From an uncultured Muribaculaceae bacterium (GTDB lineage Bacteria > Bacteroidota > Bacteroidia > Bacteroidales > Muribaculaceae): 42,435 nucleotides of DNA. The notes under the pieces are model-generated. The model was not told where the DNA came from. It ran no database searches and saw only the letters and a program-made list of their open reading frames with translations. Made by a program: the position numbers and the translations under genes. Positions 1 to 33,226 of the stretch are shown piece by piece. Every line of letters begins with the position of its first letter. Positions within the stretch are counted from its first letter, which is position 1. Location: assembly GCA_947625935.1 (NCBI GenBank), contig CANQQE010000029.1, positions 1-42,435 of the forward strand, in the 5' to 3' direction.

Positions 1-77
1 TTTTTATCTTTTGACTCTAGGCGATTATAGCGGACGTGTGCAATGATATTGCGGATTTCCTGTTTACGTTCTTCCTG
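1..77. repeat. Terminal 77-bp direct repeat, left copy
   Basis: These 77 bases are identical to 42359-42435. The reading frame of the giant virion gene runs through the junction without a shift, so the two ends belong together. A 77-base overlap is also what an assembler using that word size leaves at the ends of a circular contig, so this is more likely an assembly overlap than a physical terminal repeat. Confidence 0.95.
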
Positions 78-3000
78 CATATCCTGCCACTGTTTGCGAC
101 CTTGGATGATGATATTGTTGAATTGGGCGAAAGCTGCCTGAGCTTCATTGAGTGATTTGAAGTTCCAGCCGCTGAACGTCATGTAGATATTGATAAGGGA
201 ACGGGCTTCGTCTTTTTCGTCGTCTGAGGATTCTGGGCTATCGATGATGCCCTGTTGTTTTTGGATTTCTTCGTTTAGCTGGTCTTGGAATTGTTCTAAC
301 TCAGAGAGGCGCAAGTTTTCATATTTTTCTCTTTGTTTTGGTGAGAGGTTATGATTAGCGAGCTTCTGATTGATAGCGTCGATGCGGTCTTGGGTAGCCT
401 GATTGGAAGATGGGGCGATACTTTGGAAAGAGAGGGCTTTTTTAACCATCTGGGCGTATCGGTAGGTATCAGCGGTAGCCTTACCCTTGGGGATTTTATC
501 GCCTGGGAATTGTTTTTGGGGGTATAGGGCTTTGATTTGGGCGAGCATAGAATCCCGCATAGAATCTTTGAGGTAATTATCCAGCATTTTTCTGCACTTG
601 GCAGCGACAGATGCGAGGATAGTAACGGCTTTTTTGCCAGCGTACTCTTTAAGGAAGTCCTGAGCGTCTTCTTTTGAGTATTTTTCGGCATATTCAGCGG
701 AAGTGGCAGTAAGTCTGGCGAGGGCATCATCATAAAGCTTGCCTGATAGGGTGGAGGATTTAGAGATGGTGCCATTTTGGAACATATCAGCGTACCACGA
801 GAGCCACTTACGCTGCATATCGAGCCCTGCTGAGCCTTTTTTATACTGTTGGGGGAGGAATTTATAGGTAGCGGTGAGGGTAGCGAGCATGGTGCCCATG
901 ATGTTGCCTGCTTTAGCCTCAGATTCGCTTGTGGGGGAATTATCGACGCTCCACAAATTGAAGTCGTTTATAAGTTTAGTCCACTCCTGAGAGACGGCTG
1001 CACCGATGGCATCATTAGCTGAGCCTTGCAAGACGCGTTGGACTCTATCGGCGAGGGAATCGATAGAGAGGGATGCGGAGAAGTTGAAAGCATCCTGCCC
1101 CTCAGGGACAAAGTCGGCGGTAGTTTTGACGCCCTGCTGCTGCATTTCTTCGGCTACCTGCGCAGATATTTTTTGAGAGAAAGATGGCAGGGTGGATTTA
1201 TCCCACGAGAAAGCTTGTGCGACAAGTTCGGGGTAAGATCCAAAGTTTTTCCACATAGAGTGGGCATCTTTGAGTCTGGCAAGGACTTCTTTATTGTATT
1301 GGGAGGAGGAGATAGTATTGCCTGCGTTGGTAGTTGTTTCGCGTTTGACGGAATCGCGGGCTTTTTCTATTTCGGCTTCGATGGAGTCGATACCTTTTTC
1401 GAGGTTTTTCAGGACGAGGTCGACATATTGGGAGGCGGTTTCGATAGATCCGGTAAAGTCTTCGCCAAGATTGAATAGTCCTTGTTCGATCTTGCCGTCG
1501 TGATTAGCGAGGAAAGAGAGTTGGATTTGGATTTCTTGGAGGGACTTGCCTTGTTTAATGAGTTTGACTGCGGTGGATTGAAGGGACTCTCTTTTTTGAG
1601 GGTCTTCAATGTTCATGGTGAGGAGGCAGATTTGCTCCGTTTTGAGCGGACCGACAGCACCGGAGAGGAACATGTTGTAAAGGTTTTCGGTGGCGTATCT
1701 GCCGATAAGGATGCCGCGTTTAGATCTGGAACCTGATCTCAGCAAGCCGTCTTTGTTTAATTCTGCGTCGGAGCGCTTATATTCTCTGATATAGTAAGCG
1801 GCTGTGCGTTCATCGGCTTCATCGTCGCGCATATTTTCTTCAAAGTCAGTGCGGCGCGCCCATCGGTCATCATGTTCTTCATTTTCGATAAAAACATAGC
1901 AAGTGTGATAGTCGACATCGTCATCTTCCATCAATTTTGCATATCGATGCCTGCCGGTTACGAGTTCGAGGTCGCCATTTTTACGTAGCCACAGGAAGAG
2001 AGGGCCTGTTGTTGGCACGAATTTTCCGGTGAGTTCTTTTCCTGCGATAGTGCCGTACTGCCCTTTACCACCGATTTTGACCTGTGGCGGGCCCATCTTG
2101 ATTTTGTGTTTATCGACTAGCCCTGTATAATATCTACCTGCTGGGCTATAAAAACACTGGTCGTTGATGAAAACGCCTTTTATAGTACTTGGAGCGGCAG
2201 TTGCCTGTTTGTCGGCATAATCAAAGTTGTTTTTGGCAGCTTGTGAATACTGCTGCATCGAGGTATCATCGGGCAGCTTGCCTTTTGCTGTAAAAGCTTC
2301 ATTGCGTTTGATTTCCTCGTCTTCCTGCGTGGTAATGCGTTCGACATAATCAGCAGGAGGGATGAAGTTTTTGCGTTGTTGGGCGATAGCGCGTTCAAGG
2401 CTTTCAGCGATAGATTTTGCGACATTGTTTTGGGCTTCTTCGCTAGCCATGGCGAAAGCAGTTCTGACAGGTTCGCGGAGTTCGTTTAGCGTTTTCTCAA
2501 CAGCTTTGATGCCCTCGCCTGCGTTGGGTGAATTGAGAGCTGTGGAATAGGCGGTTTTGAGCGTGTTTATTGTAGATGCAGCTTCGAGCAAGCCGTCAGT
2601 GAAATCGTGGAGTTGAGCCATCCAGTCCGGCACGACGGAGGAATCCATGAAGTTTCCGACAGCGAGAGAAGACATAGCCTCACGAACAGACATCGGGTCG
2701 GCATTGCTGTTGTTGTTGGGGTCATTTTTATCTACATTGCGCCACCTGATAGGAGAAATGCGGGCGTTGCCGTTTATTTTTTGGATTTCCTCCGTAGCTT
2801 GTGCCAGTTGATGGGCGAGTTCATCCCATGCCTTTTGCAGGGCTTCGGCGTGAGTAGTGCCGTTTTGCTCTTCATCTTGTCTTGCGCGCTGGTCGATAAG
2901 CTGATCCAGTACGCTTTCGGTGACGTCTTCGAGGGTGTTTGTCGGCGTGTTGATGCCTTTACCTAATGAGAAGAGGGTCTGAGAGAGTACTTTTTTGGAA

Positions 3001-6000
3001 TCGATGATTTTGTAATCTCCGTCTTTACTGGTACGGAAGAGTTTTAGTCTGGCGTCATTCGGGTTATCAGTTGCGAGGTTAGCGCGCCGGACAAAGTTAT
3101 CGGCAAAGGCAGCCCAGAATCCGAGAGTTTGGACATGCCCGGCAGCTTCAGCCAGCTTAGCGGTTGAGACAGAAGTTGTTTTTTGTTCTGCTGGTTCCTC
3201 TTCATTTTGCGTCTGCGTTTCTGCCTGTTCCTCTCTTTTTTGGGTGTCCTCTGTTGTTTGAGGGCTTTCTTCTGTTACGCCCTTGCCGGTAAGCTCATCG
3301 AGTTTGCCCTGCGCCCACGCGGAGATCACTTCTGCGGTTTCCTGATCGATGCCACCTCTTGATTGAATTCTGTTGGTGATATATTCCGGCAACTGACTTG
3401 TGACATCCTGCACGTTGATGCCGGTTTGTTCCTCAGTACTCTTCACGTATTCCAGCGATGCTTCGCCTGCTCTGCGAGATGCGGCAGAGACAAGTTCTCT
3501 TCGCAAGCTGACAGTATTCGCGGCTGCTTCACCTAAGGTGCGTCTGATAAAGTTGCGTCTGCTGTCTTCGTAGGCTTGTATCTGCGATTGGAGGTAGATA
3601 TTAGCCTGCTCCTGCTTCATATCGTTTTCGAAAACGACTTGCCCGTTTGCGTCAAACTTGCGAACATGGATTGTGTTGTCAGGATTGAGAGTTACCTCCG
3701 GCAGGTCGCCTTTTCGCACCCTCTCATTCCATTCAAGCTGCATAATATCGCGCAAGAGTGGCGCGACGGCTCTACCCTCAGACGTGACATCAAAGATGCC
3801 TGTATAGTCAAGCGGCGTTCCTTTTTCTTTGCACTCGCGGTTGAATTCAGCCATTCTGCGGGCTGTTTCTTCCGGGCTGTTTTTCCAGTTGAGATCATCG
3901 ATTTTGCCTGCGACTTCTTCTCGTTGCTCCGGCGGTGCAGCCATGACTTGTTCTGCCTGCTCCTGAGAGAATCCGATGCCTCTGTAATGATTGACGCTTG
4001 TTTTGAAGTAATTGACTTCTGCATGGATAGCCCCTTCCGGGAGGAATCCCATTTTTGGCATTGTTTCGCGTGCTGAAAGTGCCGCGCTGAAAAGCATCAT
4101 GCCTGCCCACTGGCGGGGATCACCCCATATCTGACCTAACTCATCGAACGAATCTCGCCACGCCTTGCTTTGTGCGTGCGGGACGTTGAAATAGTCGTAG
4201 ACTTTGCCTGTGCCGAAAGTTGCAGCTCCACCGATAATAGGCTCCATGACTCCCTCTTCAAACGTGCCGAAACTTGTTGAAATGAGGAATCCGCCAGTTT
4301 TGCTTCTGCTGGCAACGTTGAGCATGCGCGTAGCAATCGCGCTGCCGTGTTTGGAGAAGAAAGAAAGAACTTTGTGAAGAGGCACGCTACCTACGACGCC
4401 ACCGGGTATCGCCTCCACGGCGGCATTGATAAATCCCTGCGTGATAGCTTCGTTGCTGGCGGCTTCATGCGTGAGACCGCTTGCGCGCATCTTGTCGTAT
4501 GTGTCTTGATTTGTTTGGACAACGGTATCAACACTGCCAACGGCAATGCCTATCCACGGCGCACCGAAAAGAGATCCGGCAAGCCCTGCTGAAATATATG
4601 CTGAGGTATCACCGGCAAATCCCGAGATAACGCGACCTGTTCCGACGGTAGCATTCCACCAAGCCGAACGATTATCCGGCAGCTCGCGCATGGTATCGAT
4701 GGCAGTCTTAAGGTAGCCTTTTACGGTTGAAAGTTTGTCACGTCTAGCTCTTGCGGCGTTTGAATCTTCTACTGTTTGAGCGAAACGATCAACAACTTTT
4801 TGATTTGCATTGATTGCGTTGTTGTAGAATTGGACTTCTCGCTGGGCAAGTTCTTTCAGGGCGTCTTCTGTTTGTTCGCGAGGCATGCGGATATGCCTTG
4901 CGACAAGATCGTTTTCCTCTTGCGAGCGTTCTTCCTCCGGCTTGTCTAGTATGTCGATTATTTTCGCATAGTTATCCCGCGTTGGCGTGTAGCGATCAAT
5001 GTTTGCCTGTGCGACTTTCGTTTGATTTCTCGCGCCGTAGGTGCCTTCATCTTCTAACCACTCATCGATTTGCTGCCCCCACGATGCGAGTTTGCCGTTG
5101 ACGGCAATCATGAATTCATCCGATACCGAAACAGCTCCCTCTTGCTTTTTGGCGTCAGCAAAAGCATTGAGCATGTCAACCGCTGCTTTGGTGTGGGCTT
5201 CGCTGCGAGATACGACGTCTAGAAAGGGCTCATCAATTTCACGCAGTCTGTTGGCGATTTTGTTGCCGTCTGTCCATGACTGCATGGGGGCAATATACTC
5301 CTCAGCAAACTTGCGCACGTCAGAGAGTGCGGCATAAGCTCCATCGTTGAGACGGCTTGCTGCCTCCGGAAGGTATGCCATCTGCTCCACCGAAAGGGGA
5401 TTGCCTGTGATATATTGTTTCCAGAATGAGGTGTCTTTCGTAAAGTTTTCTTGATCCTGCTGGCGTTTTTTGGTGACAATATCTCGCCGGATGTCAGCAA
5501 TAAGCGCATAATAGTGACTATTGATCGCGTCCGGATCTTCATCAATGCGTTTGACTTCATTTGTCCACCTGTCTTTATCCTGCTGCTCTTTCAAGGCACT
5601 AATCATGCCGAGAGCAATTTGGCGAGGATAGACAGATGCCCCTTCAGGAATTAAACCGCCATTTTCCATAGCGAGCGCATAGTCTCTTCCACGCGACGCG
5701 CGACAATGCAAATCATCTCCACGCATTGTGCCTGCTGAATATACCCACAGATTAGGGTGATCATCGATCATCTTCTTTGCGTTGGCGTCTTCGTCGTAGA
5801 ACCATGTGGCATCAACGGTCGCTATGTCATTAAGAGCCTGATCATATTTTTGTTTTCTTGTTTCCTGAGCGGCTACTTCAGCTTTATCTTCCAGCGGACG
5901 CGGGGATTGAGCGGGTGTTTCGTTTATCTCAAGACCTGTTGCAAACTCATGAGGTTGTCCATCTACTGATACGGGGTGGAATCCTGTATCGGGATCATCT

Positions 6001-6089
6001 GCATCGAGATATTGCGTTGTAAGGCGGACTGTCCCTTGCTTCGGCTCTTCCTCTACAAGGGGCTCTTCGGTGTCTTCAAATAATGGCAT
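1..6089 (-). CDS. Giant internal virion protein with ParB-like domain, N-terminal part (continues at 42358)
   Basis: The frame starts at the ATG at 6089 (MPLFEDTEEP), nine bases after the stop of the upstream virion gene, and stays open to base 1. Joined across the circular junction to 39934 it gives 2,838 codons including the stop. Around residues 476-640 lies a long Gly/Ala-rich, partly hydrophobic stretch, possibly membrane-active. An acidic, Glu/Thr/Gln-rich linker follows at about 937-970. Around 1331-1405 is a ParB/Srx-like segment with the signature LVTGRHRYAKLME (GRHR near 1377-1380), of the kind found in large phage polyvalent proteins. By position (after tube A and the smaller core proteins) it matches T7 gp16, the ejected inner-core protein. 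Size and domain are seen; ejection into the host is inferred. No lytic transglycosylase motif was recognised. Confidence 0.85.
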   Translation of the reverse strand, partial: MPLFEDTEEPLVEEEPKQGTVRLTTQYLDADDPDTGFHPVSVDGQPHEFATGLEINETPAQSPRPLEDKAEVAAQETRKQKYDQALNDIATVDATWFYDEDANAKKMIDDHPNLWVYSAGTMRGDDLHCRASRGRDYALAMENGGLIPEGASVYPRQIALGMISALKEQQDKDRWTNEVKRIDEDPDAINSHYYALIADIRRDIVTKKRQQDQENFTKDTSFWKQYITGNPLSVEQMAYLPEAASRLNDGAYAALSDVRKFAEEYIAPMQSWTDGNKIANRLREIDEPFLDVVSRSEAHTKAAVDMLNAFADAKKQEGAVSVSDEFMIAVNGKLASWGQQIDEWLEDEGTYGARNQTKVAQANIDRYTPTRDNYAKIIDILDKPEEERSQEENDLVARHIRMPREQTEDALKELAQREVQFYNNAINANQKVVDRFAQTVEDSNAARARRDKLSTVKGYLKTAIDTMRELPDNRSAWWNATVGTGRVISGFAGDTSAYISAGLAGSLFGAPWIGIAVGSVDTVVQTNQDTYDKMRASGLTHEAASNEAITQGFINAAVEAIPGGVVGSVPLHKVLSFFSKHGSAIATRMLNVASRSKTGGFLISTSFGTFEEGVMEPIIGGAATFGTGKVYDYFNVPHAQSKAWRDSFDELGQIWGDPRQWAGMMLFSAALSARETMPKMGFLPEGAIHAEVNYFKTSVNHYRGIGFSQEQAEQVMAAPPEQREEVAGKIDDLNWKNSPEETARRMAEFNRECKEKGTPLDYTGIFDVTSEGRAVAPLLRDIMQLEWNERVRKGDLPEVTLNPDNTIHVRKFDANGQVVFENDMKQEQANIYLQSQIQAYEDSRRNFIRRTLGEAAANTVSLRRELVSAASRRAGEASLEYVKSTEEQTGINVQDVTSQLPEYITNRIQSRGGIDQETAEVISAWAQGKLDELTGKGVTEESPQTTEDTQKREEQAETQTQNEEEPAEQKTTSVSTAKLAEAAGHVQTLGFWAAFADNFVRRANLATDNPNDARLKLFRTSKDGDYKIIDSKKVLSQTLFSLGKGINTPTNTLEDVTESVLDQLIDQRARQDEEQNGTTHAEALQKAWDELAHQLAQATEEIQKINGNARISPIRWRNVDKNDPNNNSNADPMSVREAMSSLAVGNFMDSSVVPDWMAQLHDFTDGLLEAASTINTLKTAYSTALNSPNAGEGIKAVEKTLNELREPVRTAFAMASEEAQNNVAKSIAESLERAIAQQRKNFIPPADYVERITTQEDEEIKRNEAFTAKGKLPDDTSMQQYSQAAKNNFDYADKQATAAPSTIKGVFINDQCFYSPAGRYYTGLVDKHKIKMGPPQVKIGGKGQYGTIAGKELTGKFVPTTGPLFLWLRKNGDLELVTGRHRYAKLMEDDDVDYHTCYVFIENEEHDDRWARRTDFEENMRDDEADERTAAYYIREYKRSDAELNKDGLLRSGSRSKRGILIGRYATENLYNMFLSGAVGPLKTEQICLLTMNIEDPQKRESLQSTAVKLIKQGKSLQEIQIQLSFLANHDGKIEQGLFNLGEDFTGSIETASQYVDLVLKNLEKGIDSIEAEIEKARDSVKRETTTNAGNTISSSQYNKEVLARLKDAHSMWKNFGSYPELVAQAFSWDKSTLPSFSQKISAQVAEEMQQQGVKTTADFVPEGQDAFNFSASLSIDSLADRVQRVLQGSANDAIGAAVSQEWTKLINDFNLWSVDNSPTSESEAKAGNIMGTMLATLTATYKFLPQQYKKGSAGLDMQRKWLSWYADMFQNGTISKSSTLSGKLYDDALARLTATSAEYAEKYSKEDAQDFLKEYAGKKAVTILASVAAKCRKMLDNYLKDSMRDSMLAQIKALYPQKQFPGDKIPKGKATADTYRYAQMVKKALSFQSIAPSSNQATQDRIDAINQKLANHNLSPKQREKYENLRLSELEQFQDQLNEEIQKQQGIIDSPESSDDEKDEARSLINIYMTFSGWNFKSLNEAQAAFAQFNNIIIQGRKQWQDMQEERKQEIRNIIAHVRYNRLESKDK

Positions 6090-13954: not shown

Positions 13955-15127
13955 TTATGCGGGCGCGTCGTTCGGCGCGTTTTTAGAGGGCATTTCGTCG
14001 CTTGTTGGGGCATTCTCGTTTTCCTGTTCGAGTTCACGCACCATTTTCTTAAAGTTTTCTGCGGCTTCGATGCGTTTCTGTTTGTCTATCTCCTCCTCCT
14101 CCTTTGACATGGGCTGGGGCTTTTTTGCTTTGCGTGCGGCTCGTACCTTGGCAGGCTTCCATCTCGTTTCTCTTGCCCACCGGTGAGCGTTTTCAATCAC
14201 AGTCATCATCTCATCAAAGAAGAGGACGCCAACAGGACGCCAGAAGAAACGCCCGTATTTGTCCTGAGCCATATCTGAATCGTAGTATGCGCCGATCAGT
14301 TCTGCATCGGATATGGCGTTTGGGATGGACTGCCAAGCATCCCGTGCGGCTTTTTCAACTTTTGCGGGAAGAATCCGGTAGCTAGCAAGCCACGATATGC
14401 AGGAAGAAAGCGAGGCGATCCAAGAGGTGAATTCCGGCAGCATGTCTCGCGTACGCGTGCGCGCGGTTATCGTATCTTTTCTTATAAGTATATTATCTAC
14501 CGTGGTGTTAATACCTATATTAAGTTTATTATCTGCTTCGCTAAATTTATTATAAGGTATGCTTCTGTGTAAAGCGGCGCGCGCGCGCGAGGCTTTGTCG
14601 TTGGAATTAAGCGAGTTAGCGGAATCGCCGTTTTCGTTATGCGAATGCATATGCATATGCATAACATTTTCGGTGCTTTCCTCTTCTAAATTATTTTCTT
14701 TTAGGTCATTCTGACTTTTTTCATCCGCTTGCTCAGTTTTTGATGCATTTGCATATGCATTTGCATGTGCGCATGCATATGCATTTGCATTAAATCCCCA
14801 TCTTCTTCTTGCTGCGCTGACGTTATTTCTTTGTCGGCTGATTATCTTTTTTTCAACTTCTTTATCATACAAATCAACGATCAAATTATCGCAATCCCAC
14901 CGCCAGAGACCGGGGCGATTTTCTGTCAGTTGGCGACCAAGATGGACTTTTAAGATCCAGTCAATTTCAGTCCAGTTTTTGGCACCGAGTATGATGCCGC
15001 CATTCATTTTTTCTGCGCAAAACATGGCGAGCAGTAATCCGACGCCTATGTCCTCAAGGGAGAAATTATCGGCTAGTTCTTCTCGCAGATTTGTTCTGAA
15101 TGAAGTATAGTTTAATCCGTCTTTCAT
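13955..15127 (-). CDS. Putative replication initiator/primosomal protein
   Basis: 390 residues. The start overlaps the stop of the upstream winged-helix gene (ATGA). Residues 1-110 look like the winged-helix N-terminus of phage replication proteins, ending in a charged helix (DLYDKEVEKKIISRQRNNVSAARRRWG). Residues 113-129 (NANAYACAHANAYANAS) and 156-163 (MHMHMHSH) are coded by NATGCA hexamer repeats. The linker is Asn/Glu/Lys-rich. The C-terminal domain (about 230-320, with DAWQSIPNAISDAELIGAYYDSD) is helical and ends in a Lys/Glu-rich tail. The layout of DNA-binding head, repeat-bearing middle and C-terminal interaction part recalls lambda O. SSB lies nearby, while no helicase or polymerase was found, so it may load host replication proteins. 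Function is inferred. Confidence 0.6.
   Translation of the reverse strand: MKDGLNYTSFRTNLREELADNFSLEDIGVGLLLAMFCAEKMNGGIILGAKNWTEIDWILKVHLGRQLTENRPGLWRWDCDNLIVDLYDKEVEKKIISRQRNNVSAARRRWGFNANAYACAHANAYANASKTEQADEKSQNDLKENNLEEESTENVMHMHMHSHNENGDSANSLNSNDKASRARAALHRSIPYNKFSEADNKLNIGINTTVDNILIRKDTITARTRTRDMLPEFTSWIASLSSCISWLASYRILPAKVEKAARDAWQSIPNAISDAELIGAYYDSDMAQDKYGRFFWRPVGVLFFDEMMTVIENAHRWARETRWKPAKVRAARKAKKPQPMSKEEEEIDKQKRIEAAENFKKMVRELEQENENAPTSDEMPSKNAPNDAPA
14471..14560. other. AT-rich tract next to the hexamer repeats (possible unwinding region)
   Basis: Within the replication gene, this stretch is visibly richer in A/T than its neighbours (CTTATAAGTATATTATC, then TTAATACCTATATTAAG and AATTTATTATAAGG). 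GC-rich segments flank it (CGTACGCGTGCGCGCGG before, GGCGCGCGCGCGCGAGG after). It lies 80-300 bases from the repeat cluster, as an unwinding element would beside iterons. Confidence 0.4.
14644..14790. repeat. ATGCAT hexamer repeats, iteron-like, inside the replication gene
   Basis: Two clusters. At 14645-14662 ATGCAT is repeated in tandem. At 14742-14790 there are many overlapping ATGCAT/TTGCAT units. The 16-base unit GCATATGCATTTGCAT occurs exactly at 14751-14766 and 14775-14790, 24 bases apart. The hexamer phase follows the codons and gives alternating Ala and His/Met residues. Placement in the middle of the initiator gene is as in lambda ori. Confidence 0.6.
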
Positions 15128-15426
15128 TGTGCAGCCTCCGTTCCTATTTTAGCCAAGATCTTGTTGCACTTGACCATGAATGCATGCCCCTCAGCAGACA
15201 GCCAGACGTCACAGTAACGCCTGTCGTCTTTCTTAAAGCGCAGTGTTGAGATAAAGCGCATACGTCTCAGGTCAAATAGATGCTTGTGGATCGACGCTCG
15301 GGAAATGGCGAGTTTTCTTGAAATGTCAATGATTGAGCAACCTTCATGTTTGCTTACATAACACAATACGACTAGCTGTGTAAAGGTTATTTCATTGAGC
15401 CGCATGAATTTCAGCAAATGTTCCAT
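15124..15426 (-). CDS. Winged-helix (MarR-like) DNA-binding protein
   Basis: 100 residues. The fold is clear: FTQLVVLCYVSKHEG, the helix-turn-helix CSIIDISRKLAISRASIHKHLFDLRRMRFISTL (30-62), then a wing (RFKKDDRRYCDVWLSAEGHAFM, 63-84). It is short, with little beyond the DNA-binding domain. The stop overlaps the start of the replication gene, so the two are translated together. A second winged-helix protein of similar size lies on the other side of the replication gene. It may regulate replication or the operon. Confidence 0.65.
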   Translation of the reverse strand: MEHLLKFMRLNEITFTQLVVLCYVSKHEGCSIIDISRKLAISRASIHKHLFDLRRMRFISTLRFKKDDRRYCDVWLSAEGHAFMVKCNKILAKIGTEAAQ

Positions 15427-15428
15427 GA

Positions 15429-15626
15429 TTATTTATTATCTTTGAGACCTACTAATTCGAGAGCTTGTTTGATACAAATCTGCATTTCGAGCAGCTTGTC
15501 GCGCAGGTCGGTATCACGACCTGTTCCCGACTTGAAGTAATACCAGAATCCACCCATCGCGTTTTTTGTTTTCTTGGCGAGAGAGTAGAGTTTCAAGTCG
15601 CGTTCGTTTAATTCGTCTTTTCCCAT
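15429..15626 (-). CDS. Small protein, unknown
   Basis: 65 residues from the ATG at 15626 (MGKDELNERDLK), which lies inside the last codons of the upstream cysteine-pair gene. A longer frame to 15689 would overlap that gene much further and is not preferred. The sequence is helical and basic, with GGFWYYFKSGTGRDTDLRDKLLEMQ in the middle. No family is recognised. Confidence 0.5.
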   Translation of the reverse strand: MGKDELNERDLKLYSLAKKTKNAMGGFWYYFKSGTGRDTDLRDKLLEMQICIKQALELVGLKDNK

Positions 15627-15829
15627 TTTTCTAAAGATTCTTTTAGCCTGTTCATGAATTCTTGTCGGCATTCTTTCGAACAGAAACAAAGTCCGTCCAG
15701 ATTTGAATCTGATAATCCATTGATAATACAGAATCCGATAGCCGACTCCTTGTCAGCGAAAACTCTTCCCGTTATACGCTTGCGGCAGTTATCGCAAATG
15801 ATTTTGTAGGCAGTAGTCTTTTTGAACAT
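15608..15829 (-). CDS. Small cysteine-pair (zinc-ribbon-like) protein A
   Basis: 73 residues. C12-x2-C15 (ICDNC) and C50-x3-C54 (FCSKEC) form the presumed zinc site, followed by the basic helix RQEFMNRLKESLEKWEK. It is one of seven relatives in this operon. It lacks the conserved Trp seen in the middle of most others and is the only one downstream of SSB. Zinc binding is inferred from the spacing; the function is unknown. Confidence 0.65.
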   Translation of the reverse strand: MFKKTTAYKIICDNCRKRITGRVFADKESAIGFCIINGLSDSNLDGLCFCSKECRQEFMNRLKESLEKWEKTN

Positions 15830-15834
15830 AGCAA

Positions 15835-16194
15835 TTAAAAGGGAATATCCTCTTCGTTCATGTCATTGTTTGCGGGCTTAGGCTTCGGCGTGTAGTTGGA
15901 CTTTTCCGCTATGCTTTTGTATATGTTGTCGCCGTAAAAATTGACGTTAAAAAAGCCTTTGTATTTTCTGCCGTTTATTGATCCTGTGGTGTGGATAAAG
16001 TCACCCGGTTTCAACTTTTGGATGGCGTCAAAAAGCACCTTGTCGAAATAGCTGACGTTGTAAAAGTTCGGAGCTTTCTTGCCGGGTGTCGTGATCTGCA
16101 CCTCGTAGAATTCGCTGGATCCATCAACGTTCACCATGGGAGTTGGCGGTTCTGCCACTTTCCCGGACAGCTCAAATCTAGCTAGTGATTTCAT
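15835..16194 (-). CDS. ssb: Single-stranded DNA-binding protein
   Basis: 119 residues from the ATG at 16194 (MKSLARFELSGKV); a longer frame to 16227 would only add a weak extension. The body fits an OB fold: FELSGKVAEPP, FYEVQITTPG, FYNVSYFDK, LKPGDFIHTTGSINGRKY, FFNVNFYGDNIY. The tail DMNEEDIPF is the classical acidic SSB tip, which docks SSB partner proteins, possibly host ones. It sits among the cysteine-pair genes and downstream of the RecT/RecE-like pair. Confidence 0.85.
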   Translation of the reverse strand: MKSLARFELSGKVAEPPTPMVNVDGSSEFYEVQITTPGKKAPNFYNVSYFDKVLFDAIQKLKPGDFIHTTGSINGRKYKGFFNVNFYGDNIYKSIAEKSNYTPKPKPANNDMNEEDIPF

Positions 16195-16199
16195 GATTA

Positions 16200-16424
16200 T
16201 TATTTGTGTCTGTATTGTTTTGCGCATTCAAGGCTGCAAAAATGGAGTTTGCAATCTTCGTTGTAAAGCGAGCCGACATGTGCGATATTGCCGACTATTT
16301 TTCCGCCATACCAGCCCTCTTTTTGCGCGTTATATAGCAGGAGTGACATTCTCTTGGATTCAGTATGATTCCAGCAATGATCGCATGTGAGCGTGTGCAG
16401 GTTCGCTTTGTTAGTTGTTAGCAT
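16200..16424 (-). CDS. Small cysteine-pair (zinc-ribbon-like) protein B
   Basis: 74 residues. C14-x2-C17 (LTCDHC), W38 (KEGWYGG) and C63-x3-C67 (LHFCSLEC), then AKQYRHK. This is the same plan as its neighbours, with a long middle loop. The start lies inside the last codons of protein C. Confidence 0.7.
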   Translation of the reverse strand: MLTTNKANLHTLTCDHCWNHTESKRMSLLLYNAQKEGWYGGKIVGNIAHVGSLYNEDCKLHFCSLECAKQYRHK

Positions 16425-16656
16425 GTTTCATATTTGATTTGAGTTCATTCATAAATTTTTCCCGGCATTCAGGGCAGCAGAATTCATACCCTGATGAGAA
16501 GAGAGACATGCCCGGATAGTCTCCGCACCACCCGGCAGCTTCGGCAGCAATAAGCAGGTTGCACGTGTCCGGAGATTCTGTGTCTCCTTTTGTTACTCTA
16601 AACTCTTTCTTGCAGTTGTCGCAAGTGAGCCATACTTTATGCAATCGGTGTATCAT
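16411..16656 (-). CDS. Small cysteine-pair (zinc-ribbon-like) protein C
   Basis: 81 residues. C12-x2-C15 (LTCDNC), W43 (AAGWCGD) and C60-C61-x2-C64 (FCCPEC), followed by the helix REKFMNELKSN. There are extra cysteines at 32 and 44. The start overlaps the stop of protein D (ATGA). Confidence 0.7.
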   Translation of the reverse strand: MIHRLHKVWLTCDNCKKEFRVTKGDTESPDTCNLLIAAEAAGWCGDYPGMSLFSSGYEFCCPECREKFMNELKSNMKHANN

Positions 16657-16898
16657 TTTTTTATGTGTTTTTCGAGGTTTTTAATTTCATACTCTGCCGC
16701 GCACTCGTCACAGCAAAAATGAAGTTTGCTTTTTTTGTAGTTGTAGATATTTTTCGGATTTTTGTTTTCAACGTCACCGACCCACCATCGCCGTTTTGCT
16801 TCCTGTGACAGCGAGCGCATCGTTGAAAATCCGTCGTAGCGGTCATCGAGATAATGCCCGCAGTTGTCGCATATCAGGTTATATTTAGTGGTCAACAT
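16653..16898 (-). CDS. Small cysteine-pair (zinc-ribbon-like) protein D
   Basis: 81 residues. C10-x2-C13 (LICDNC), W38-W39 and C62-x3-C66 (FCCDEC), then a charged helix (AAEYEIKNLEKHIKK). It starts MLTTKYN, close to MLTTNKAN of protein B, as expected of recent duplicates. Its start lies 14 bases inside the upstream gene. Confidence 0.7.
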   Translation of the reverse strand: MLTTKYNLICDNCGHYLDDRYDGFSTMRSLSQEAKRRWWVGDVENKNPKNIYNYKKSKLHFCCDECAAEYEIKNLEKHIKK

Positions 16899-17112
16899 AT
16901 TCTTTGATATATTCGTCTACCATTTGGATCATGCTATCCACTATCTCAGCAAGCTCAAAAGTCGCGTCAAACATATCACGTACACGCTTTTTCACTGTCG
17001 GATAAATAGGCGAGTCATGAGGAGTCTCAATCTCTATGCAAGTTATGTTTGTTACCATTTGATGCACAAGATACTTTGCCCTGCGTCTAGCCCTTTTTCT
17101 GTCGTATTCCAT
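16885..17112 (-). CDS. Small helical protein, unknown
   Basis: 75 residues with no cysteine pairs; it sits between two cysteine-pair genes. The N-terminus is very basic (MEYDRKRARRRAKY). The C-terminal half is acidic and helical (ATFELAEIVDSMIQMVDEYIKEY). It starts six bases after the upstream stop and overlaps the next start. No family is recognised. Confidence 0.6.
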   Translation of the reverse strand: MEYDRKRARRRAKYLVHQMVTNITCIEIETPHDSPIYPTVKKRVRDMFDATFELAEIVDSMIQMVDEYIKEYVDH

Positions 17113-17118
17113 ATTGAT

Positions 17119-17316
17119 TCAGTGGTTGCACCATCCGCAAAGTTGGCGTATATGTTTTCCTTTGCTGTCTCTAATGAACGTCCATCCCTCTGATGCCGCA
17201 TTGACAAGCATATCGCAAAAGCTTGCGAATTCGTCTCTTTCTGCGACTGTGAAAAAGCGGTGTCCGCACTTGTCGCACGTTAGGCTATACACGATCTTTC
17301 TTTTCTTTTCTATCAT
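17119..17316 (-). CDS. Small cysteine-pair (zinc-ribbon-like) protein E
   Basis: 65 residues. C14-x2-C17 (LTCDKC), W45 (SEGWTFI) and a terminal C60-x2-C63 (LCGWCNH). This is the shortest member; its second pair has two residues between the cysteines instead of three, and the usual C-terminal helix is missing. It overlaps the end of the membrane-protein gene upstream. Confidence 0.65.
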   Translation of the reverse strand: MIEKKRKIVYSLTCDKCGHRFFTVAERDEFASFCDMLVNAASEGWTFIRDSKGKHIRQLCGWCNH

Positions 17317-17482
17317 TGTTTTTTGTTGTTTTTTGCTTGTCCTTGATTGACTTGATATCTAAGTAGTCACGCCAGAAATTCATCCCGCACGCGACTACGG
17401 CGAAAAACAAGAATATACACATGGGCACGATGAGACCAATGGTAAAAAAGATCCATTCAAATGTTGACATCTCAGTTTGCAT
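17285..17482 (-). CDS. Single-span small membrane protein
   Basis: 65 residues. One long hydrophobic segment (WIFFTIGLIVPMCIFLFFAVVACGM, about 10-34) is followed by a strongly basic tail (KDKQKTTKNNDRKEKKDRV), which predicts a cytoplasmic C-terminus. The start at 17482 is supported by AAAGGAGG five bases upstream. No family is recognised; it is not next to the lysis genes. Confidence 0.6.
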   Translation of the reverse strand: MQTEMSTFEWIFFTIGLIVPMCIFLFFAVVACGMNFWRDYLDIKSIKDKQKTTKNNDRKEKKDRV

Positions 17483-17648
17483 CTTTTCCTCCTTTCATCG
17501 TTGCTAAATATTCAAGATCTATCAACACGGAAACTATTTTCAAAAGTTCCAAATCAGCGGCGCATTTATCCGGAGCCATAGCATAGAGATTCCCGATAGC
17601 TTCAATCCCCTCACTTACTAGATTTTTTACTCTGTCTCGATTCTTCAT
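17472..17648 (-). CDS. Small helical protein, unknown
   Basis: 58 residues from the ATG at 17648 (MKNRDRVKNLVSEG), which overlaps the stop of protein F (ATGA). The longer frame to 17711 lies wholly over protein F and is rejected. It is helical and ends MKGGKDAN; these last codons carry the ribosome-binding site of the next gene. Confidence 0.55.
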   Translation of the reverse strand: MKNRDRVKNLVSEGIEAIGNLYAMAPDKCAADLELLKIVSVLIDLEYLATMKGGKDAN

Positions 17649-17887
17649 TTTTCTTCTGCTTCCTTTGCAAACGACGAAAGGCGATATGCATTGTAACACG
17701 CCTCGCAACAAAAATGATGCTCAACGCCATTTATGCTTTTGATTAGCCAAGTAGTCCAATCATCGGCTAGCCTAAGGAGAGTATATCTTGAATTTTCAGA
17801 CCATCCATCATTAAAGCCATCTTGAAATACCTTGTGGCATGTATCGCAAGAGAGCTGGCGGAGTTTAGCTGTTCTTTCTTTAATCAT
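17645..17887 (-). CDS. Small cysteine-pair (zinc-ribbon-like) protein F
   Basis: 80 residues. C14-x2-C17 (LSCDTC), W44 (ADDWTTW) and C60-x3-C64 (FCCEAC), then YNAYRLSSFAKEAEEK. It starts within the last codons of the amber-interrupted relative (ATGATTAA) and is intact. Confidence 0.7.
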   Translation of the reverse strand: MIKERTAKLRQLSCDTCHKVFQDGFNDGWSENSRYTLLRLADDWTTWLIKSINGVEHHFCCEACYNAYRLSSFAKEAEEK

Positions 17888-18107
17888 TGTCCCAGCTTTT
17901 CTTTGCCATTCGAGAGAGATATTTTATCTCGCAGTCAAGGCTGCAAAAGTGCTTGTCCACGAGCCAAGTTTTCTGTCTCTATCCGTCTTTCATTGCTTCC
18001 AGTGCTAGTTTGCTTTCGCTGTCGTAACAAATAGTGAAATCATGGCAGTTGTTGCATATCATCCAATAATATTTATTCCCATCGTCTCTTTCTTCTACTT
18101 CAATCAT
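17880..18107 (-). pseudogene. Cysteine-pair protein G, interrupted by an amber codon
   Basis: Starting at the ATG at 18107, with GGAGG six bases upstream, the frame reads 42 codons with C18-x2-C21 (ICNNC). It meets TAG at 17979-17981 and then continues for 32 sense codons with TWLVDKHFCSLDC (C55-x3-C59 counting the stop as 43) to TAA at 17880. The amber falls where five relatives have Trp, so it is probably one TGG-to-TAG change. Other genes here use TAG as a normal stop, so the code is standard. Both ends keep the operon's overlaps. It is either recently broken or dependent on suppression or a mixed population. Confidence 0.75.
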
Positions 18108-18516
18108 CTCTCCCTCCTTTCCACTCGGTAAGTTTCTCGACCTCTTCGGCAGGCAGCAGAAGAGTCACTTCAGAGCCTTTGACGTACAAGTCGTCAAAGA
18201 GTACTACTTGTCCGTCCACTCCTTCGTCTTTTTCTAACACATATATTTCGTCTCCGATTTTGACGAGGTCATTGTATTTGAATTTCCTCCGTTCCGTGGA
18301 TTTCTCGGGCTCTTTCGTGGATTTCTCGGGCTCTACGTCCCCGGCATAAAAAACAGCAGATGCAACCGTACTGTATCTAGCAGCCTCACCAAGCACGAGC
18401 CGCACCCTCGGAAGCTGCGCAACCACAATATCTTTCTCTACGTTCACGATCTGGACAATATAGGGAACAGTGATCACATCCCCTGCCTTAAGATTTTTCA
18501 ATTCTTCTTTAGTCAT
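18100..18516 (-). CDS. Hypothetical protein, beta-rich
   Basis: 138 residues. Two similar beta-rich halves (AGDVITVPYIVQIVNVEKDIVVAQ and YNDLVKIGDEIYVLEKDEGVDGQVVLFDDLYVKG) look like small barrel domains. They are joined by a linker with the repeated motif EPEKSTKEPEKSTE (about 62-75). The last residues, WKGGRDD, coincide with the ribosome-binding site of the next gene. No family is recognised. Confidence 0.6.
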   Translation of the reverse strand: MTKEELKNLKAGDVITVPYIVQIVNVEKDIVVAQLPRVRLVLGEAARYSTVASAVFYAGDVEPEKSTKEPEKSTERRKFKYNDLVKIGDEIYVLEKDEGVDGQVVLFDDLYVKGSEVTLLLPAEEVEKLTEWKGGRDD

Positions 18517-18667
18517 TGTTTTCTCCTTTCAGGCGCACGCATTGGCATGCGGGTTCTTTGGTGTCGTTGTGTTTGCCAAAAACGGAAGCTATCGTGCATA
18601 AAAGGAGTGTCAATCCGCATATAAATAGCGTAAGGGCTATAATCTTTTTGTCCCAATCTTCAGGCAT
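18509..18667 (-). CDS. Single-span small membrane protein
   Basis: 52 residues from the ATG at 18667 (MPEDWDKK), which follows AAAGGAGG by five bases; the longer frame is rejected on that basis. One membrane segment (IIALTLFICGLTLLLCTIASVFG, about 9-31) precedes a tail with two cysteines (ACQC). The gene overlaps both neighbours. Confidence 0.6.
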   Translation of the reverse strand: MPEDWDKKIIALTLFICGLTLLLCTIASVFGKHNDTKEPACQCVRLKGENND

Positions 18668-18923
18668 TTTGTCCTCCTTTCTCGTTTGTCTCTGAATCCT
18701 TGTCCAGATAGAGAGAAAATCCATTTTCAGTCACTTCGAACCTTGGATTTTTACATTTTGTTAATAACTTAATGATCTCATGAAGATTTGAAACATCCTC
18801 GATAATTGCGTACGCCAGTTTTTTAATCTGATCTGCGTTATCGTCTGTGACTCCACCAATTTTTATTATTTCAAGCACAGATTTAACAATATCATCGCAT
18901 CTCTCCTTTAAACTCTTAACCAT
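18660..18923 (-). CDS. Small helical protein, unknown
   Basis: 87 residues, amphipathic helices (ERCDDIVKSVLEIIKIGG, DQIKKLAYAIIEDVSNLHEIIKLL) then short strands. It is preceded by AAAGGAGGG and starts within the end of the RecE-like gene. It ends EKGGQNA, the same reading of the ribosome-binding site as the KKGGQNG end of the gene before it. No family is recognised. Confidence 0.6.
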   Translation of the reverse strand: MVKSLKERCDDIVKSVLEIIKIGGVTDDNADQIKKLAYAIIEDVSNLHEIIKLLTKCKNPRFEVTENGFSLYLDKDSETNEKGGQNA

Positions 18924-19842
18924 TTTGCCCTCCTTTCTTCAAATCCCATGCGGGCACTTCGTAAGTCATATAGGGCAGCATAGCGTCCCCCCAGTCGTCA
19001 TTTTTCCAGCAAGAGGTATATTCATGGAGAGCCTGATAGTATCTCGCACGGTACATCTCAACGTCGCAAGGATTGATATTCACCCAGCGCATGCGGGTAG
19101 GCTGATCCAGCGAGACGTATAAAAACAGGAACGGTCTATCCTGTTTCAGCACCAGAGAGGATAAATCGGAATAGATAGCCGCTTGGATGCCGTAGCCGTA
19201 TTCTGCCATGTTCCTGTTGATTTCTGCCTTTGAAATGATGGAGCGTGACGTTGTTTTGAGGTCAACGATAGGAGAATTCAACTGTTCACCCCCTATCGCG
19301 TCAAACATGCCTGTGAGAATGACTTTGCATGGCAGTTTTTCGCCGTTCACCTCATCCAGCATAGCCCAGCAGGCGAGCTGCGTATGGTATACGGACAGAT
19401 AATTTTCAATCGCGGTTCTTGCGAGCGTGGCAACGCGCTTGGCATCTTCGTATTCTTTCGGCGTGATAATCGATTTGCCTGCCTCTTCCAGCTCCGCAGC
19501 GCGCGCCTTGCCCGCGTTTGTGCGCCGGTTGATCTCCTCCACGGCATACAAGTTTTCAAAGCATTCAGGCGTCAGCGTGAGGCAGTCGATGAGAGACCCC
19601 TTGCGCAAGGCTTCTGTATCTTTCTTCTCCTCGGAGATAGCGCGCCATCGCGCGCCGTAGGGATCATTCATGAAATCCCACAAGATAGACTTGCTCACGA
19701 CCGGGCACTTAAATTTTTCTTCCAGTTCCTTTTTTGCCGCGTGGTACACATCAGGCTCAACGAATTTATGGTAGCACCCATCTTTTTTGATTTGAGATGA
19801 TACCTCCGCGACAAGCGCTTTTGCTTTATCTTCAGTATTCAT
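18916..19842 (-). CDS. RecE-like PD-(D/E)xK exonuclease
   Basis: 308 residues. The arrangement of a phage RecE/YqaJ-like 5'-3' exonuclease is visible: SKSILWDFMNDPYGARWRA near 50-68, KGSLIDCLTLTPECF (81-95, where the family often has His in place of D86), GMFDA with D181, VDLKTTS with D194 and K196, and YGYGIQAAIYSD with Q220. D181, D194 and K196 would be the metal site, and Q220 the supporting glutamine of motif III. It is shorter than full E. coli RecE and matches its nuclease domain. The RecT gene lies one gene upstream. Together they would resect and anneal DNA ends for recombination or concatemer formation. Confidence 0.8.
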   Translation of the reverse strand: MNTEDKAKALVAEVSSQIKKDGCYHKFVEPDVYHAAKKELEEKFKCPVVSKSILWDFMNDPYGARWRAISEEKKDTEALRKGSLIDCLTLTPECFENLYAVEEINRRTNAGKARAAELEEAGKSIITPKEYEDAKRVATLARTAIENYLSVYHTQLACWAMLDEVNGEKLPCKVILTGMFDAIGGEQLNSPIVDLKTTSRSIISKAEINRNMAEYGYGIQAAIYSDLSSLVLKQDRPFLFLYVSLDQPTRMRWVNINPCDVEMYRARYYQALHEYTSCWKNDDWGDAMLPYMTYEVPAWDLKKGGQNG

Positions 19843-20136: not shown

Positions 20137-21171
20137 TTATTCAGCAATAAAGACGATACCGCTTTCTTCAAGAGCCTTGCGCGCGTCTGCGTCTGAGCGG
20201 ATAGCCAGAGCAAAGTCTGCAAGTTCCTCACGGCTGCACCCTACTTCTGGATGCGAGAATCCGATAGCCTCCATGACGCGGTAAACTTTGAGCCACCCGG
20301 CGCCACTCTGCTTCATGGACTTTTCAATCCATTTCAAAGCGGATTCCATTTCTTCGATGCCCTCTTTCAAAAGCAACTCTTCATCAGTGGGGGCTTCCTG
20401 CGGCTTTGGCGCATCTTGTACAGGCTTTTTCCGCTTGGTGACGGGCTTTTGGGGCTTATCTTGTTCATCTTGTACAAGATCCTGATCGGGCGTCTCTTCG
20501 GGAACGGTGCTTGCTTTTTCCTGAGCCGGTGCAGGTTTTGCAAGCTTAAGCCCGGATTTCGTGGGGGTGACGTTTCGGATTTCCTGAGACGCGACATCGA
20601 CATCCTCCAGCTCCTCTGCCGTCTGCATGCCCAGCAACTCTTCCGGGACGAATGCGCGAGCAAAGAAAGCGGCTGCACGGTAGCGCATCATCTGCTCCGG
20701 CATGGTTTGCCATTTCTTGTTTGCCGTCCATCCCTCAGCGCGCGCCATCTCCATGGTGATCGGCGTGCCGTAGTCCGGTGCTTTGTCCTCCGGGTCGTCG
20801 GCACGGTGTCCGACAACTTGGATGCCGCCAGTGTAGTCTTTGCCGTTCGCAAAGCGATACTCAATTCTGCGGTACTTCGGGGATCGGTTGAGCAAGGCGA
20901 TAGCCATCTTGCCGCTGATGCCTGCGTTGCCGTGGACAATGACGATATTTTGGCAGACCATCAACGGATCCATCCGGAGGCGTTGAGCCATGTTGAGAGC
21001 AATCATGACGTTTCCTGCGTTGTTCTGGAACGTGGCGGGAAGCAACGTGGATTTGCTCAGGAAATCAGCAAACTTGAACATCTGCTCAAGGTCGCGGAAT
21101 GTGGTAAGCATGCCTCCTCCTTGCGGAGCGTACGAGGCAAGTTCGTTTTGATTTGGGAGTGTGGTACTCAT
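20137..21171 (-). CDS. recT: RecT-family single-strand annealing protein
   Basis: 344 residues. The RecT core is plain at about 28-195: LEQMFKFADFLSKSTLLPATFQNNAGNVMIALNMAQRLRMDPLMVCQNIVIVHGNAGISGKMAIALLNRS, then GKDYTGGIQVVGHR and TPITMEMARAEGWTANKKWQTMPEQMMRYRAAAFFARAFVPEELLGMQTAEE. The C-terminal part (about 215-270) is a Lys/Pro/Gln-rich linker followed by a helical tail, variable in the family. It anneals complementary single strands and normally works with the nearby nuclease and SSB, both present here. Confidence 0.88.
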   Translation of the reverse strand: MSTTLPNQNELASYAPQGGGMLTTFRDLEQMFKFADFLSKSTLLPATFQNNAGNVMIALNMAQRLRMDPLMVCQNIVIVHGNAGISGKMAIALLNRSPKYRRIEYRFANGKDYTGGIQVVGHRADDPEDKAPDYGTPITMEMARAEGWTANKKWQTMPEQMMRYRAAAFFARAFVPEELLGMQTAEELEDVDVASQEIRNVTPTKSGLKLAKPAPAQEKASTVPEETPDQDLVQDEQDKPQKPVTKRKKPVQDAPKPQEAPTDEELLLKEGIEEMESALKWIEKSMKQSGAGWLKVYRVMEAIGFSHPEVGCSREELADFALAIRSDADARKALEESGIVFIAE

Positions 21172-30520: not shown

Positions 30521-33226
30521 ATGTTCAGAAACTCTTTCAACGCAGGCGAACTTTCAGAGCAGGTTTCGTTACGACCTGAATTAGACGTGTATTCTCGCGG
30601 GTGTTCGCTCATTAAAAACTTTGACCTGTCGGAGCAGGGAGGAGTATCGAGGCGCAAGGGCTTTAGGTGGGTATACACCGATAGGGCGGCCGGATGGTCT
30701 TGTCTTCACCAAGAGGCAGCGGCTGATGCGGCAGTGCATATTTTCAACGCGTCTGATAACGCGTCTTTCGTTCTTCTGTTTTTTGTGGAAAAGAGCGGCA
30801 CGACGTATACGCTGTATGTCAACATTATAACGCGAGATCCGAAAGAAAAATACAAGCGAACACTTGTCAAGCGGCGACTTGGTATCGCCATCAACGCGCA
30901 AGTCAATGTCCACGAGTTGCAATTCATGCAGCTCAACGCCTCACTCATTATCACGCACAATGACATTCCTCCACTTGAATTAAGACTTGATGCGGAGAAA
31001 AATAATTGGACTCTCACTTATTTTTTTGACACCTCAAACAAAAGAAAATTGCCGAATTATCCTTGGCGTAACTACGAGCTGCAAGACGAAATAGAATTGA
31101 AATTGAACGGCTCAGTTTGGAATGCGACCGGTGCTAATATTGACGATTTGAAAAGCAAGGCAGACTATTTGCGCGTCTCGGTTTACACGGATGAAGCGGT
31201 TATGCGGTATGGTCTTGGCGTAAATGTAACTCAATATTCGATGAGATATGTCACGGAATTCAGAAACTTCAAGAAAGGAGACATTATTTATTATGATGCA
31301 ACCGTTGAGGACAGTTGGTGGACGTTCAAGGAGGATTTTATAGCCGGACAAGACGATCCGGAAGCTGATATTTTCGCCGAGGGAATGACACACCCATCGA
31401 GCTATCCGAATGTTTTTCAAAAAGTTGATAAAAAGCCAAAAATTCAGAATGGACATGCTGTTGATTTTCCGAACAAACTTTGCGTGACAGAGGATCTTAA
31501 ATCAGCAGTCGGGTATAAGAAGGGGGATCTCCTGTGTTTTGAGACAAGATTTTCAAGGGTTTTCACGTGCATTGCCGATTATGTATCATTTTCGCCAACT
31601 GACACAACACATTTCGTTGAGGGTTTTGTCGTTGCTAAGGCTCCATGTAAAGGTAAATGGCGTTTTGTTAATACCGGAACATGGTTTGGAGAATACGAGG
31701 TGCGCGCATCTTACGATGACGAATTTTCAGAGAAAGGAGAATTCGAAGTTCGTGGATCTGTAAAGTCGTTACCGGGCGAACCTATCAATCAAGAAATAGC
31801 TGGTGACGAGAGTGACGAAGAATGCTGGATCTCGCTTTGGTTGACAAAAGCTTATATGTTACAAGACTGTGTGCCGGATCTTTCCGGAACTGTGGAGCCG
31901 CTGATTCGTAACATGAAAATTTGGTATAATCACGATCCGGCAACAAGGCCTTGGAGTTACAAGAATTATAGAGCTTATGAACCGCTGGCGGATCAGATAA
32001 AATTGATCGTCGATTCGTACAAAAAAGATCTTGTTTTCGTGAAGTCCGGGAACGGCTACAAAATGCAAACAGGCATGCAAGGCGGGCTGTCGTCTGTCAA
32101 AACGTACAAAACAGAAAATTGGTCGGTGGAGGCATTTTCGAAAGGCAATTATCCGGCATGCGTGGCAATGATTGACCAGCGCATGTGCTTTGGCGGTACG
32201 AGGGAGCAGCCGATGACCGTCTGGATGTCGAAAACAAATGATATAGACAATTTCGGGGTAACAGAAAGTGACGACTCGGCGCTTATTCTGACGGTTGCGA
32301 GCGACACGCAGAATCCTATCCGCTGGATGAGTTCGCAGCGTGGCGCGTTGTTCATCGGGACGTCACGCGGTGAGTTCGTTATAGATGCCGGAGGAAGCGG
32401 CGGGGCGATCACAAACAAAACGGCGACTGTTGTTCGCCATGGGTTTAACGGGTCGGAAAAAGTTCCAGCCGTTGTGGCGGATGACTCTATAATCTATCTG
32501 ACCAAGGGCGGGCAGCGGATGAAAATGTTCGGCTACCAAGAAAATGTCGGAGGATATATCTCCACCGACCTCAACACGTTCGCCGACACAATTCTGTTAA
32601 ACGGCGGAGGCGTTAGGAAATTCGCCGTGCAGAAAAGCCCTATCTCGCGCATTTTGTGCGTCCTGAATGATGGGACTATGGCGGTTTTGACATTCAATAA
32701 TCTTCAACAGGTGCAGGCGTGGGCGCACTACGAGCTTTCGGATCAGTTGCTAGATTACAATGACGAAACGTATAAGTTTATCGATGTCGCCGTTGAGACG
32801 AACAAATCTCTGAATGATACGCTTTATGCCATTGTCACGTACCGAACGGGGCTGAATACTTGGGTCACGGATTTGATGGAACAGTCAGACGATGCAGAAT
32901 TTTTTGATTATACCGATGTCGCGTCTAACATACCATACGAATCATGCATCATATCCAATATCTTGTCTACTACGCAGATCCGGAATCCAAAGCAAGATGT
33001 CGGTGAAATTATGTTCTATCTCGGCGAAGATAGACAAGCTGATGGCATAGAAATAACCGTTGACGGCGGGGAAACGTGGAGTGCTCTTGACTATCCGCCA
33101 AATCATATACTGAAAAAAGGCTGGCATTCTCAACTCGGTTTTGGTACCGTGACATGGGACACGAAAGTCGGTATTCGCGTAAAAGAAGGTGAAGGGCTTA
33201 TCATTCGCGCAATTCAGGTTATATGA
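30521..33226 (+). CDS. Tail tubular protein B-like nozzle (T7 gp12-like)
   Basis: 901 residues. The N-terminus FRNSFNAGELSEQVSLRPELDVYSRGCSLIKNFDLSEQGGVSRRKGFRW (2-50) is the signature of the podoviral nozzle family. Residues about 580-700 carry typical blades (ACVAMIDQRMCFGGTREQPMTVWMSKTNDIDNF, SSQRGALFIGTSRGEFVIDAGG). The tail nozzle receives the adaptor ring and closes DNA exit. It starts four bases after the portal stop, and its stop overlaps the large terminase start (ATGA). Confidence 0.8.
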   Translation: MFRNSFNAGELSEQVSLRPELDVYSRGCSLIKNFDLSEQGGVSRRKGFRWVYTDRAAGWSCLHQEAAADAAVHIFNASDNASFVLLFFVEKSGTTYTLYVNIITRDPKEKYKRTLVKRRLGIAINAQVNVHELQFMQLNASLIITHNDIPPLELRLDAEKNNWTLTYFFDTSNKRKLPNYPWRNYELQDEIELKLNGSVWNATGANIDDLKSKADYLRVSVYTDEAVMRYGLGVNVTQYSMRYVTEFRNFKKGDIIYYDATVEDSWWTFKEDFIAGQDDPEADIFAEGMTHPSSYPNVFQKVDKKPKIQNGHAVDFPNKLCVTEDLKSAVGYKKGDLLCFETRFSRVFTCIADYVSFSPTDTTHFVEGFVVAKAPCKGKWRFVNTGTWFGEYEVRASYDDEFSEKGEFEVRGSVKSLPGEPINQEIAGDESDEECWISLWLTKAYMLQDCVPDLSGTVEPLIRNMKIWYNHDPATRPWSYKNYRAYEPLADQIKLIVDSYKKDLVFVKSGNGYKMQTGMQGGLSSVKTYKTENWSVEAFSKGNYPACVAMIDQRMCFGGTREQPMTVWMSKTNDIDNFGVTESDDSALILTVASDTQNPIRWMSSQRGALFIGTSRGEFVIDAGGSGGAITNKTATVVRHGFNGSEKVPAVVADDSIIYLTKGGQRMKMFGYQENVGGYISTDLNTFADTILLNGGGVRKFAVQKSPISRILCVLNDGTMAVLTFNNLQQVQAWAHYELSDQLLDYNDETYKFIDVAVETNKSLNDTLYAIVTYRTGLNTWVTDLMEQSDDAEFFDYTDVASNIPYESCIISNILSTTQIRNPKQDVGEIMFYLGEDRQADGIEITVDGGETWSALDYPPNHILKKGWHSQLGFGTVTWDTKVGIRVKEGEGLIIRAIQVI

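Follow-up and report, generated by a model that had tools for sequence, protein, structure and literature searches.

The window analysed here, the whole 42,435-base contig CANQQE010000029.1 from an uncultured Muribaculaceae bacterium, carries at positions 15608-18107, all on the minus strand, seven short cysteine-pair genes that we call mini-genes A to G. Comparison of their sequences shows that the seven are related, as diverged members of one predicted single-domain family, of which six are intact and one is interrupted. The set recurs in rearranged form in a second phage, which suggests that it is maintained as a kit of small, probably zinc-holding binding proteins. A previous sequence-only reading of the window largely holds as far as gene positions and relatedness are concerned, while its statements on the plan of E, on a Trp in A and on the basicity of the tails had to be corrected.

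Relatedness of the seven mini-genes

Mini-genes A (15608-15829, 73 residues), B (16200-16424, 74 residues), C (16411-16656, 81 residues), D (16653-16898, 81 residues), E (17119-17316, 65 residues) and F (17645-17887, 80 residues) are intact open reading frames (ORFs). G (17880-18107) alone is interrupted, by a single in-frame TAG after residue 42; its first ORF spans 17979-18107, and both cysteine pairs are present despite the interruption. Recoding of TAG as an explanation for G found no support, TAG terminating five other listed ORFs, and is further disfavoured by ORFs of 873-2029 residues that stay open without an in-frame TAG. The common plan starts with a C-x2-C pair near the N-terminus; in A, B, C, D and F, F-C-[SC]-x2-C follows after 33-47 residues; the distance between the pairs varies across the members and the cysteines are constant. 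A reads C-x2-C ... FC-x3-C, with a short middle that lacks the Trp described as usual near residue 40. E is divergent: its second pair is C-x2-C without the F-C motif, and the protein ends two residues later, without a C-terminal helix. The basic C-terminal helix ascribed to most members has to be toned down, as the tails other than that of E hold 3-5 Lys and Arg against 0-4 Asp and Glu, which makes them only mildly basic, with F balanced. The net charge of the mini-proteins is low, from -4 to +4.

A strict motif, C-[DN]-x-C and then [FW]-C..C, was defined after the genes had been viewed and is fitted by five of the seven (A, B, C, D and F). Five strict-motif ORFs lie in the stretch 15001-18500, compared with none in any of 300 dinucleotide shuffles of the same sequence, and none was found among 92 other viral loci (1.39 Mb in all). 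With leave-one-out profiles built from A-F only, and with an X substituted for the stop of G, the members reached 16.8-38.0 bits, against maxima of 8.5-15.7 bits over 500 cysteine-fixed shuffles each. The real score was reached by none of the 500 shuffles in all seven cases, which upholds the earlier claim of one family; F is the weakest intact fit to its sister mini-proteins. The shortness of the genes might suggest small spurious ORFs whose cysteine pairs arose by chance, but the shuffles, the control loci and the counterparts in the second phage leave this explanation next to no probability, and for A, B and G conservation refutes it.

Two results temper this picture. Unrelated-looking singletons with the same motif (CD-x-C ... 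FC-x3-C) from other viral contigs reach 27.4 bits against the A-F profile, within the members' leave-one-out range, so the array members are no more closely akin to one another than to some proteins from elsewhere. In a tree of 23 mini-proteins, in which 14 of the 20 inner branches stayed open and few pairs were settled, the window's seven require five changes, and 105 of 500 shuffles manage with as few or fewer; B grouped with its counterpart in the second phage (support 83/88). Both the singleton scores and the tree speak for loosely related zinc fingers of separate ancestries, gathered singly from a widespread phage pool, an origin that we nevertheless regard as quite unlikely.

A second array in a related phage

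The second array lies on L314 (4477 bases, contig G492:C101), from a genome bin, G492, in the same family as the window's own bin, G000. It comprises five domains and the same flanking genes. The counterpart of A (L314 3041-3250, E 6e-13 in a single comparison) sits elsewhere in the order than in the window. That of B, with 39-41% identity, is the second domain of a two-domain gene (L314 1891-2373, 160 residues), where it is fused head to tail with another mini-domain. The counterpart of G (L314 3615-4031) is uninterrupted, holds the same position beside the same flanking gene and matches G's first ORF at E 1.9e-6 and B at E 7e-5; two domains remain besides these three. The flanking gene that adjoins G in both phages (window 18100-18516, minus strand, 138 residues) matches L314 4028-4477 at E 2e-8, and the small minus-strand gene with a GRDTDLRD motif at the opposite end of both arrays (15429-15626, run as the longer ORF 15429-15689) matches the far end of L314 at E 1e-9, each in a single comparison. 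L314 3615-4031 also continues in frame into a different second stretch with an internal strong ribosome site and ATG (3819-3834), and may yield two products.

Because A, B and G all have counterparts in L314, between the same flanks, the array is old and kept, and not the fresh within-genome expansion that the sequence-only reading had proposed. On the same evidence, distinct paralogues have been kept as distinct genes, at least some of which predate the split of the two phages. The diversifying selection proposed alongside the expansion finds no support either, since the divergence of A (33% identity) and B (41%) between the phages is close to that of the two flanking genes (37% each). There is no sign of A and B evolving faster than their surroundings in this comparison, which covers A and B, excludes members without a clear counterpart and spans a distance too great for a formal test. 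The earlier interpretation is supported in part. Virion genes on another G492 contig are 21-43% identical to those of the window, and the terminase alone stands out, with 76%. The terminase gene (window 33223-34893; L351 1387-3060; 71% DNA identity over 1.55 kb) looks as if it had been exchanged between phages, given this gap to the other matched virion genes.

The two domains joined head to tail in L314 1891-2373 would suit paralogues that are subunits of one hetero-oligomeric complex and are kept together for that reason, as joined genes often mark interacting partners. Such a complex is distinctly unlikely in our judgement, however: the number of domains (seven in the window, five on the L314 piece) and their order, with A moved, differ between the two phages, and G is interrupted. 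We also consider unlikely a modular deck, maintained by a phage lineage of Muribaculaceae, in which a common treble-clef scaffold would present different loops to different host proteins, its members being added, dropped, moved and joined between phages.

Fold and proposed role

The mini-proteins resemble TRASH/FCS (MYM-type) treble clefs more closely than the zinc ribbons to which they had been likened. In the model of C (mean predicted local distance difference test score, pLDDT, 79.2; predicted template modelling score, pTM, 0.64), two short strands and a middle helix are followed by the second cysteine pair, which enters a long C-terminal helix; the model of A has helices at positions equivalent to those of C. 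The likeness to zf-FCS and TRASH domains resides in a C-x2-C pair followed by F-C-[SC]-x2-C, with a helix beginning at the last pair, yet the matches are weak and no window member reaches a curated Pfam cut-off. F comes nearest of the set, with 26.5 bits against TRASH_HVO_1752_C (cut-off 27) and 19.3 bits against zf-FCS (cut-off 22.4), and zf-FCS matches occur in 7 of the 21 scanned members at E<=0.1. A further difference is the spacer between the pairs, which is longer in A, B, C, D and F than the 14-30 residues given for zf-FCS in the available part of the source (PMC4047054). Fold and profile matches, all of them weak, include the TRASH-type MYM5 and eL24, plus YacG as a fold match, and also C2H2, zinc-ribbon and other finger families; the motif and part of these matches led us to set the zinc-ribbon assignment aside in favour of a TRASH/FCS treble clef. 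The PADLOC profiles contributed nothing useful towards a defence role by family match: a scan of 11 array domains returned two families, one member each, with a best E of 0.0045 and no convincing match.

We tentatively read the mini-proteins as small early binding adaptors, with a separate host or phage partner for each, and put this a little short of an even chance. Each mini-protein would fold around one metal ion and bind through a face formed by the variable middle and the C-terminal helix. The proteins would be produced early, judging from the neighbouring genes, and would act as stand-alone adaptors or inhibitors on separate partners, host or phage proteins that serve replication, transcription or defence, several members coexisting since each partner would require its own copy. 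We infer every step from fold to partner. This reading is proposed because a shared scaffold carries varied loops and several members coexist in two phages, and because of functions reported for TRASH/FCS domains; the nearby exonuclease VIII-like and RecT genes count in its favour as well. Inhibitors of host enzymes occur among the small proteins that phages make early. In the available parts of the sources, zf-FCS domains are reported to bind proteins or nucleic acids, some of them RNA and DNA (PMC4047054), phage gyrase inhibitors are cited, and YacG is reported to act on gyrase by means of the zinc finger, a single Trp and the tail (PMC10886550). The mode of action is likened to the blocking of DNA gyrase by YacG. 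YacG is a gyrase inhibitor of many proteobacteria encoded by a cellular gene, unlike the phage array, and has no sequence match to it, its family being absent from the Pfam matches at E<=1 and its chain from the PDB profile matches at E<=10. The YacG spacer is also shorter than in the array proteins. Paralogues that share a scaffold but differ in their loops would make it possible to ask directly how phages redirect a fold towards other targets, and L314 supplies variants from nature for comparison, together with a naturally occurring two-domain protein.

Gene context and occurrence

The mini-genes are packed head to tail, their neighbours overlapping or sitting a few bases apart, with an SSB-like gene and small genes in between, all on the minus strand. 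The SSB-like gene between A and B (15835-16227, with a likely start inside the ORF) scores 14.7 bits against Pfam SSB (cut-off 26), so its name is weakly supported. Three small genes are interleaved: one of 75 residues without a Pfam match at E<=1 (16885-17112), one of 65 residues with a hydrophobic stretch (17285-17482), and one for which an inner ATG was chosen as the start and which has no Pfam match (17472-17651). The same run of genes begins with RecT (20137-21171), followed by an exonuclease VIII-like gene and then the array; as the genes overlap or nearly touch along it, a single transcript from RecT to the array is likely. The array is accordingly part of a recombination operon of the phage.

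These neighbours are the starting point of the main rival explanation, namely that the mini-proteins are accessory nucleic-acid binders of phage replication and recombination, working with SSB and RecT on single-stranded DNA, RNA or DNA ends. It is favoured by the SSB-like gene between A and B, by the exonuclease-like and RecT genes of the run, and by two of the seven singleton loci whose neighbours were read, which lie near what we take, by eye, to be an SSB-like or ERF-like gene. The ribosomal protein eL24 among the weak matches points the same way, as does the RNA and DNA binding of some zf-FCS domains (PMC4047054, available part). The low net charge and mildly basic tails do not; moreover, the SSB-like gene has no match on the 4.5-kb L314 piece, where the array is kept, and RecT was not found in the genome of L314. 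We hold this role possible but doubtful.

The window looks like a closed phage genome, because an exact 77-base repeat is found at both ends and the end pieces of a very long ORF (3-6089 and 39934-42435) both match one 3128-residue ORF of a relative (L351 3072-12458). The two pieces, seemingly one very long gene spanning the ends of the closed genome, match no Pfam family at E<=0.01. The window also has genes for a head-tail adaptor, for the tail and for the terminase, and from binning only we infer a host in Muribaculaceae. Two more RecT-like genes in the window's bin (G000:C118 3685-4218 and G000:C26 45866-46354) perhaps mark other phages or prophages.

The sequence-only reading had proposed a search for genomes with at least two such genes: among the 397 other family genomes, one (G492) has a second array, and 2 of 161 pattern-selected IMG/VR loci hold two strict-motif ORFs, none holding more. 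The A-F profile matched 18 of 398 family genomes, the window's own included, at E<=0.05, with several matches only in the window's own (six) and in G492 (five) and one weak match in each of the other 16. In the genus of G492, which contributed 34 genomes, G492 was the only one with a match at E<=0.005. Across the order, 22 of 393 genomes matched at E<=0.02, only the window's own more than once. Family and order searches scored at most 14 candidates per genome and may miss weak copies. A contig scan gave three loci, two of them matching over 21 residues only. The IMG/VR pattern scans (92 + 69 stretches, with 28 strict-motif ORFs) sample some codon choices and spacings only and may miss arrays elsewhere.

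In IMG/VR, the terminase retrieved 21 distant relatives and RecT 71, none of them with such an array; searches with the portal, with the B pair and with the small flanking gene retrieved none, and the pattern RDTDLRD had no match there. In phage records, 15 kb of the window had no near match, and tblastn found six records for C, all at E 1 or worse, and none for D. As the phage and viral collections that were searched contained no close relatives, the lineage is little sampled there. The literature searches made, on phage zinc-finger mini-protein arrays and on treble clef and TRASH terms, listed no description of such an array. Small phage proteins that carry the motif singly, with no function assigned, have a similar length and cysteine plan, and viral models gave Foldseek probabilities of 0.94-1.00, yet E values of 0.02 or worse; they occur one per locus, unlike the tandem array; one such 105-residue singleton is identical in five viral loci (L139 6704-7021, L141, L173, L191 and L210). 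The HF1-group haloviruses likewise encode many CxxC micro-proteins of <100 residues per genome, 14 and 12 in two of them, but these are archaeal viruses, and the available part of the source describes neither a single paralogous family nor a tandem array (PMC7230728).

Strong Shine-Dalgarno sites form a further feature of both runs. AAAGGAG precedes ATG six times on the minus strand of window 17480-18937 (0.78 expected), five times at listed gene starts, and seven times on the minus strand of L314 1710-4045 (0.09 expected); other genes of the same runs lack the site. With one extra base in the pattern, bin G000 holds 98 sites against 16 for the reversed pattern, many of them on few contigs and five on the window's phage. 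Bacteroidia ribosomes fail to recognise Shine-Dalgarno sites owing to bS21, bS18 and bS6, according to the available part of PMC9976891, and the phage genes with such sites may form a separate translation class.
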